A stretch of DNA of 64,000 nucleotides from Acidobacteriota bacterium (GTDB lineage: Bacteria; Acidobacteriota; Terriglobia; Acidiferrales; UBA7541): the NCBI GenBank assembly GCA_003224055.1, contig QHYE01000044.1, positions 62,001 to 126,000 of the forward strand, read 5' to 3'. The translations under genes were made by a program, and so were the position numbers. Positions 672 through 8,643 of this stretch are shown piece by piece. The notes under the pieces are model-generated. The model worked only from the letters and a program-made list of their open reading frames with translations. It was not told where the DNA came from and did not search any database. Within the stretch, counting starts at the first letter, position 1. Every line of letters begins with the position of its first letter.

Positions 672-810
672 TGCAAATGCACTATTCTTACGGTCTGAGC
701 TCGGTGCTAGCTTGCAGCGGTGGAAACGGCCCGAGTTTCTGGTGCGCCTGCGACGCGCGGGGTTTGCCTTTTTGAAGCGGGCCTAAGTCTATCTGCTGGA
801 GCGAGACGGC

Positions 811-1512
811 ATGAAGCGGTTCTTGAAATGGACACTGGGAGTTGTGCTGGGACTTTTGGTCGTGGCCTTTGGGGCGCTTTCCTATCTGGCCGGCAGCCCG
901 AAGGATGCCTTGTACATGGTGCGGTACGCGCTGCCGCACATGCATCGTGGCACTCTGAAAGTGGGCGACGATGCGCCCGATGCCCGGCTCCTCGCTCTCG
1001 ATGGTCAGACCCGTTTCCACATCCGCGAACGCACCGCGGGCCGGCCCCTCGTTCTCGTTTTCGGCAGCTTTACTTGACCGCCCTTTCGTCGCCAGGTCGG
1101 CGACGTCGTGCAGATTTACAACGACTATAAGGACCACGCCGATTTCCTGACCGTCTACGTGCGCGAAGCGCATCCCACCGATGAATGGCAGATGAAATCG
1201 AACGTGAAAGACGACGTGTGCTACGCGCAGCCGAAAACTTTGGAACAGCGCATGGCCATCGCCAACGACTTCACCAAGCGCTTCAAGTATCCACTGCCCT
1301 TTGGCGTGGATGACATGGCCAACGCGGCCGATCTTGCGTACTCCGCGTGGCCGGAGCGTCTTTACATCATCGATGAAAACGGCCGCATCGCCTATCGCGG
1401 CGGAATGGGCCCGTTTAACTATAAGCCCGGCGAAGCTCGCGCCTGGCTGGCCGGGCGTTACGGCGAAGTAAAGCACCCGGAAAAAACGGAGACCGCGCCG
1501 AAGAAAAGTTGA
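811..1512 (+). CDS. deiodinase-family selenoprotein (in-frame TGA = Sec89)
   Basis: One reading frame runs from ATG 811 to TGA 1510-1512, interrupted only by TGA at 1075-1077. Read as selenocysteine it gives 233 residues: a signal anchor (about 1-28), a thioredoxin-like fold, and the active-site string LVFGSFT-U-PPF. The iodothyronine deiodinases have FGSCT-U-PSF at the same place. The similarity continues on both sides of the TGA: ADFLTVYVREAHPTDEW (deiodinase ADFLxxYxxEAHxxDxW) and PERLYIIDENGRIAYRGG followed by GPFNYKPGEARAWL. A SECIS-like hairpin follows the TGA (separate entry). A GGAG at 798-801 precedes the ATG. The family does reductive dehalogenation in animals. The bacterial substrate is unknown, and a membrane-anchored peroxiredoxin-like redox role is possible. 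Ordinary gene calling would stop at residue 88 or start late near 1108. Confidence 0.9.
1087..1105 (+). promoter_or_regulatory. bacterial SECIS-like hairpin
   Basis: Seven perfect Watson-Crick pairs (CGTCGCC 1087-1093 with GGCGACG 1099-1105) close a five-base loop AGGTC. The GGU in the loop (1095-1097) begins 17 nt after the TGA at 1075-1077. Bacterial SECIS elements lie just downstream of the UGA inside the coding region and present a GGU-containing loop to SelB; the E. coli fdhF loop also contains AGGTC at a very similar distance. The hairpin is read directly from the sequence. Its function is inferred from the geometry and from the deiodinase context. Confidence 0.85.
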
Positions 1513-1516
1513 GCCT

Positions 1517-2317
1517 ATGAGGAATCGTGCCGGCAACTTGGCTGCGCCTCGATCCAAAACTTCGCGAAACATCGGTCTGGCTCGGGCGCTCTCCAAGCTC
1601 GGCGTTTGCTCGCGTTCGCAGGCCGCCGAACTGATTCGCGCGGGACGCGTCAAGCTGAACGGAACATTGCGCCGCGATCCGGAAACTCCGGTACACATCG
1701 AAAAAGATCGCATCGAACTGGATGGGAGTCCGCTCGCGAAGAGCGAAAGAATTTATCTCGCGCTCAACAAGCCGCGTGGTTTGGTCACCACCGCATCGGA
1801 CGAAAAAGGCCGCGAAACGGTTTACGGCTATCTCCCCGCAGATTTTCCATGGGTTGCACCCGTCGGCCGACTGGACATGGCCAGCGAAGGGTTGTTGCTG
1901 CTGACGAATGATTCCGAATGGGCCGCGCGAATCTCGGCGCCGGAGACGCATCTGGAAAAAACGTATCACGTTCAGATTGATGCAATCGCGGATGAGAATT
2001 TGCTCAATGCTTTGCGCACCGGAATTCGGTCCTCCGAGGACGGCGAATTGCTGCGGGCGAAAGGCGCGAGCCTTCTGCGTCGCGGCGAGCGCAATTCCTG
2101 GATCGAAATTGTTTTGGACGAAGGCAAGAACCGCCAGATCCGCCGGATGTTGAAACAGTTGCAAATTGAAGTTTTGCGGCTCATTCGCGTAGCGATCGGG
2201 CCGCTGGCGCTGGGCGATCTTGCCAAAGGCAAGACGCGCGCGATCCAGAAGGAAGAGAAGCAGGCTCTGGATCGCGCGATGAAAATTGCGACCCGCGATC
2301 CTGCTCTCTCGCGGTAG
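1517..2317 (+). CDS. rRNA pseudouridine synthase, RsuA/RluB family
   Basis: Converts a specific uridine in ribosomal RNA to pseudouridine. An S4 RNA-binding domain lies at about residues 18-65 (ALSKLGVCSRSQAAELI and RAGRVKLNG). The catalytic domain follows, with the family block GRLDMASEGLLLLTND, whose Asp is the catalytic residue, and the motif EGKNRQIRRML near residue 205. Length (266 aa) fits the RsuA/RluB/RluE group; RluB-type 23S modification is most likely but cannot be told from the sequence alone. The ATG lies 4 nt after the selenoprotein stop, so the two are probably cotranscribed. Confidence 0.93.
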   Translation: MRNRAGNLAAPRSKTSRNIGLARALSKLGVCSRSQAAELIRAGRVKLNGTLRRDPETPVHIEKDRIELDGSPLAKSERIYLALNKPRGLVTTASDEKGRETVYGYLPADFPWVAPVGRLDMASEGLLLLTNDSEWAARISAPETHLEKTYHVQIDAIADENLLNALRTGIRSSEDGELLRAKGASLLRRGERNSWIEIVLDEGKNRQIRRMLKQLQIEVLRLIRVAIGPLALGDLAKGKTRAIQKEEKQALDRAMKIATRDPALSR

Positions 2318-8569: not shown

Positions 8570-8643
8570 TGGAGCGGGCGATGGGAATCGAACCCACGTC
8601 CGAAGCTTGGGAAGCTTCTATACTGCCATTGTACGACGCCCGC
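8570..8643 (-). tRNA. tRNA-Gly (anticodon CCC)
   Basis: On the minus strand the acceptor arm GCGGGCG pairs with CGCCCGC. The anticodon arm is GAAGC, loop TTCCCAA, GCTTC, giving anticodon CCC. The T arm is GTGGG, TTCGATT, CCCAT. The 3' CCA is encoded in the DNA (complement of 8570-8572). The gene is 74 nt including CCA and needs no intron or unusual arm. Confidence 0.95.

Follow-up and report, generated by a model that had tools for sequence, protein, structure and literature searches.

Background

Deiodinase-like proteins, in selenocysteine (Sec) as well as Cys form, have been known from Sargasso Sea bacteria since 2005 and probably serve another, perhaps redox, function there (PMC1088965). 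A 2026 review places the bacterial deiodinase-like family (PF00837, motif UxxC) among those with functions largely unknown (PMC13188914). Bacterial deiodinase-like selenoproteins, being known since 2005, are thus not new in kind, and the question of the bacterial substrate dates from the same year. Through this family soil bacteria are connected with the animal enzymes that activate and inactivate thyroid hormone. In these animal enzymes, DIO1-3, the equivalents of residues S86, T88, Y116, E119 and H121 of the protein described below have been assigned to a proposed proton relay and to the substrate loop (PMC11592359, PMC9141512).

Here we describe a member of this family found in a 64,000-nucleotide stretch of an acidobacterial genome (the window). 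Standard annotation would split or truncate the gene at an in-frame TGA, while the evidence points to one selenoenzyme. Two observations are new. Of 80 bacterial Sec forms, 76 carry an auxiliary Cys at one of three mutually exclusive sites. The family also proves frequent in the phylum to which a planctomycete relative belongs: 115 of 392 sampled genomes have it over the cut-off, for the most part in Sec form. A search of openly accessible literature yielded no paper on an auxiliary or resolving Cys in bacterial deiodinases or on planctomycete deiodinases.

Results

One reading frame across an in-frame TGA

The gene occupies positions 811-1512 (+ strand) as a single frame of 233 codons, running from an ATG start to a terminal TGA stop at 1510-1512. 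A further TGA at 1075-1077 is codon 89, and translation with TGA as U yields a 233-residue protein with U at 89. The original prediction, of a frame open on either side of this TGA, was correct to the base, and the motifs that it singled out (FGSFT-U-PPF, EAHPTDEW, PERLYII and GPFNYKPGEARAWL) are all found in the translation.

Divergence at codon positions 1, 2 and 3 amounts to 0.21, 0.17 and 0.53 upstream of the TGA and to 0.15, 0.10 and 0.48 downstream, a coding pattern in both parts; the codon differences downstream comprise 1288 synonymous and 626 non-synonymous changes. Judged from these substitution patterns, protein-level constraint acts on the frame on both sides of the TGA.

When about 85,000 prokaryote genomes were scanned, 42 loci emerged, most of them in acidobacterial assemblies. 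Aligning the Sec column, as had been proposed, gave TGA and never TAA or TAG in all 34 strong relatives (L009-L042, 39-86% identity), and Cys codons in the other eight loci, which are weak thioredoxin-like matches. A pseudogene, a sequencing error or a plain stop that ends the product after 88 residues and leaves the 3′ part without function is extremely improbable: TGA is an ordinary stop too, for example at the end of this same gene, but it stands at the equal column in 34 other assemblies, constraint persists 3′ of it and the Sec machinery is complete in the genome. The conserved column and the downstream constraint led us to reject a chance stop, a frameshift and a pseudogene, the first two of which had already been argued against from the position of the codon.

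An antisense ORF at 688-1713 (- strand, 341 codons) spans the whole selenoprotein gene. It had no match in a Pfam scan and its frame is broken by stops in 21 of 31 orthologues; it was rejected as a real gene and is probably an artefact of high GC content.

Selenocysteine machinery and a SECIS-like hairpin

A single PF00837 gene is present in the genome, which measures 4.5 Mb and is 95.6% complete. The search for Sec machinery that had been suggested found all four components in it: tRNA-Sec (selC; 58.2 bits against a 47-bit cut-off, anticodon TCA), selB (356 bits), selA (560 bits) and selD (353 bits), the last three also exceeding their curated cut-offs. The finding that would have spoken against Sec, namely absent machinery together with homologues that all carry Cys, did not arise. 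Of the 20 genomes in the window's phylum that have a Sec form, 18 score over the cut-off for selA, compared with 247 of 392 sampled overall; of the two exceptions, one is 88% complete and has no match, and the other has a weak match only.

Just 3′ of the TGA lies a SECIS-like hairpin (1087-1105, + strand; nt 13-31 with the T of the TGA as nt 1) with a 7 bp stem and the apical loop AGGUC. Hairpins with GG in an apical loop of 3-7 nt near this place were scored in each sequence against synonymous-codon resampling. The window hairpin reaches -12.6 kcal/mol against a resampled mean of -4.6, and 1-2 of 100 resamplings were as good. For the near set the means are -8.6 and -4.25 kcal/mol (p<0.05 in 37% of members), and for the distant Sec forms -9.25 and -2.6 kcal/mol (p<0.05 in 60%). 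By the same resampling, eight Cys deiodinase-like genes gave -0.75 against -1.6 with none significant, and none of eight thioredoxin-like controls had a significant hairpin. Resampling and Cys controls thus support the arrangement of a SECIS, in which a stem with a small, G-bearing apical loop closely follows the UGA. Against dinucleotide shuffles the window hairpin alone is not exceptional (z -0.59); what supports it is the resampling test together with its recurrence, not that score. A consensus RNA fold over fixed columns found almost nothing, probably because some lineages have the loop shifted by about 4 nt in the 3′ direction, where it is still apical. The Sargasso Sea selenoproteins share both the position of the hairpin and the G in its loop (PMC1088965). 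Vertebrate deiodinases, by contrast, have their element in the 3′ UTR, whereas here it is of bacterial type and lies within the coding region.

The TGA column, the Sec machinery, the SECIS-like hairpin and the constraint before and after the TGA together lead to the prediction, from sequence, that the gene encodes a genuine selenoprotein in which TGA 1075-1077 is read as Sec89.

Family, fold and membrane anchor

Pfam T4_deiodinase (PF00837) matches residues 49-213 with E 8.6e-41 in a match that crosses the TGA; its 140 bits, against a curated cut-off of 27, place the catalytic domain in the family. The similarity that had been noted past the TGA extends to residue 213. The matches to Redoxin and AhpC-TSA are weak (E 1.5e-6 and 6.2e-6). 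In the PDB, sequence similarity is highest to mouse DIO2 and DIO3 (E about 1.2e-27), and the catalytic position of these entries, changed from Sec to Cys, aligns exactly on U89. An AlphaFold2 model built from 21 sequences (mean pLDDT 80, pTM 0.74) has a helix at residues 2-27 followed by a Trx-type domain, with a confidence of 55-67 in the loop-D region (residues 121-140), a level that supports no Sec89-Cys137 distance. With this model Foldseek places mouse DIO2 (E 6.9e-14) and DIO3 (2.1e-13) on top, followed, from 3e-9, by thioredoxin-like proteins and the ResA, DsbE and Bcp folds. Sequence and fold thus both bear out the membership in the deiodinase family that was to be checked by search.

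The N-terminal membrane anchor (811-897, + strand) begins MKRFLKW, continues with about 20 hydrophobic residues and has no lipobox Cys. Kyte-Doolittle hydropathy peaks here at 2.34, in the 19-residue stretch that begins at residue 9, and the model also places its helix 2-27 in the anchor. The positive-inside start suggests that the catalytic domain is periplasmic.

NCBIfam NF038285 ('deiodinase family protein') matches the catalytic domain with 200 bits (E 5e-59), below the 250-bit cut-off of that model, and only model positions 177-336 of 347 are matched by the window protein. L097-L101, Cys-form relatives of comparable length that come from the phylum of L042 (titled Rhodospirillaceae), have the motif GSYSCPHHRKR, a long hydrophobic N-terminal region and a loop-D Cys in DDFCF; by this N-terminal region and by the Cys that replaces Sec we tentatively take them to be of the NF038285 type.

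Catalytic residues compared with animal deiodinases

With DIO1-3 (mouse DIO2 9h48, DIO3 4tr3) the window protein shares the N-terminal membrane anchor, the Trx fold with loop-D, the motif S-x-T-U-P-P-F, the Y/E/H/W residues at the same spacing (+27, +30, +32, +37) and E259. By alignment, S86, T88, Y116, E119 and H121 correspond to DIO3 S167, T169, Y197, E200 and H202, and they are invariant or nearly so in the 80 bacterial Sec forms, in which W126 (DIO3 W207) is common and the place of E182 (DIO3 E259) mostly has an acidic residue, E or D. The segment Y116 to W126, which aligns with the proton relay and loop-D of DIO3, is encoded at 1156-1188 (+ strand). The catalytic Sec is thus accompanied by the S/T and Y-E-H relay of a deiodinase.

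Other residues differ. The window protein has none of Arg275/Lys241, the outer relay His219, the proximal Cys168 and the distal Cys239. DIO3 R275 and DIO2 K241, basic residues with a proposed role in holding the thyronine carboxylate, correspond to Met199 here and to M, I, N or L in near orthologues. DIO1 is likewise not known to have a basic residue at this place. The outer relay His (DIO3 H219, DIO1 H174) is Pro141 here and in all near orthologues; human DIO1 H174A remains active (PMC9141512). The place of DIO3 F258 is taken by Pro181, as in DIO1 (PMC11592359), where the Pro is compatible with thyronines.

With several thyronine-binding and re-reduction residues not kept in the alignment, 'deiodinase' is here a family name only. 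The chemistry is probably of the deiodinase type, acting on a substrate other than iodothyronine. Deiodination of thyronines by the window protein appears doubtful, since the substrate-clamp Arg, the outer relay His and Cys at the known resolving positions are absent.

An auxiliary cysteine at alternative sites

The bacterial deiodinase-like family is described with a UxxC motif (PMC13188914), while this clade has UPPF, and the only Cys besides residue 89 is C137 in loop-D (1219-1221, + strand), which is invariant in near orthologues and which we propose as the resolving Cys. Among the 80 bacterial Sec forms, 32 of which are near-identical orthologues, the auxiliary Cys is at 137 in 38, at 154 (or 155), in the helix after loop-D, in 34, and at 87, the proximal site of DIO1 and DIO3, in four; none has two of these sites. 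The remaining four have no Cys at 87, 137 or 154, one of them (L093) being a Sec form with U-P-Y-C, the UxxC arrangement. Some have further Cys outside the three places: 13 of the 48 distant Sec forms carry two or three in the domain.

Cys forms, namely L097-L101 and the planctomycete-type L123, L127 and L131, also retain a Cys in either the helix or the loop, and the auxiliary Cys is therefore a trait of the subfamily and not of Sec as such. A quick tree needs a minimum of eight changes to account for the four Cys states, which speaks for few independent relocations. In DIO1 the equivalent of site 87, Cys124, bonds with the catalytic residue (PMC9141512), so the simplest reading is that of a resolving Cys that relocated. 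The pattern across the aligned proteins suggests that the auxiliary Cys is such a relocating resolving cysteine. L123, L127 and L131 are long proteins with the motif FGNFTCGPF and an N-terminal part that resembles EF-hand repeats; by eye, the C-terminal part of L131 resembles AhpD/CMD proteins.

Discussion

The reading that we consider very likely is a genuine PF00837 selenoprotein with one membrane helix and a probably periplasmic Trx/peroxiredoxin-like domain, working as a small-molecule reductase that is resolved by Cys137. SelB and Sec-tRNA would decode TGA 1075-1077, guided by the hairpin just 3′ of it. The enzyme most likely reduces a small molecule. Sec89 would act through its selenolate and remove a halogen (formally X+) or an oxygen from that substrate, while protons come from Ser86, Thr88, Tyr116, Glu119 and His121. 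Loop-D Cys137 could then resolve the Se-X or Se-OH so formed to a selenenyl-sulfide, which a thiol reductant, presumably on the periplasmic side, would reduce in turn.

Two narrower forms of this explanation differ in the substrate. That Sec89 reduces peroxides or exchanges disulfides in the manner of ResA/TlpA, as a peroxidase or thiol oxidoreductase and not a dehalogenase, is slightly less likely than not. The weak Redoxin and AhpC-TSA matches and the rank of the ResA, DsbE and Bcp folds directly after the deiodinases agree with it, and one Sec plus one Cys at alternative positions recalls the classes of 2-Cys peroxiredoxins. A redox function has been suggested for the marine proteins, and thyroid hormone is not expected in these bacteria (PMC1088965). 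The deiodinase match is, however, far stronger than any peroxiredoxin match, and the deiodinase-specific E119 and H121 occur in all aligned family members, W126 in most. These residues belong to the S/T/U/PPF/Y/E/H/W/E core, whose full conservation with DIO spacing agrees with a true aromatic (iodo or bromo) dehalogenase, with Sec89 dehalogenating natural halogenated phenols by the deiodinase mechanism. Pro181 fits such an enzyme, given that the Pro-bearing site of DIO1 is wider and accepts more substrates (PMC11592359). The replacement of DIO3 Arg275 (DIO2 Lys241) by Met, Ile, Asn or Leu and of His219 by Pro in near orthologues argues against it, as do neighbours that have no part in halogen metabolism, and we regard aromatic dehalogenation as a tentative possibility.

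A broader proposal would make the bacterial forms widespread membrane-anchored reductive dehalogenases, with a resolving Cys that moved among loop-D 137, helix 154 and proximal 87, and would derive the vertebrate thyroid-hormone enzymes from this pool; we consider it unlikely. The conserved core, the absent clamp residues and the pattern of the auxiliary Cys offer concrete handles for testing function.

Distribution and genome context

The Sargasso Sea proteins, which share the Pfam family and an active-site Sec with Cys homologues (PMC1088965), come from a marine metagenome, whereas the source here is acidobacterial. PF00837 is over the cut-off in 30 of 396 sampled genomes of the window's phylum, in both Sec and Cys forms. 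In the phylum of the planctomycete relative (L044, titled Planctomycetota) most of the matches listed (L109-L138) have one in-frame TGA, and there are often several PF00837 copies in one genome. The phylum of L042 has the family in 9 of 398 sampled genomes, mostly without an in-frame TGA.

The gene lies between an inorganic pyrophosphatase (117-671) and a pseudouridine synthase (1517-2317), an order present in many orthologues. Genome context was dropped as a clue to the substrate, these neighbours being housekeeping genes. L027, titled Betaproteobacteria, has the same acidobacterial order at 84, 74 and 69% identity for pyrophosphatase, deiodinase and pseudouridine synthase, and is probably a misassigned assembly. 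The only Rfam match in the window is an ordinary tRNA gene at 8573-8643 (- strand).
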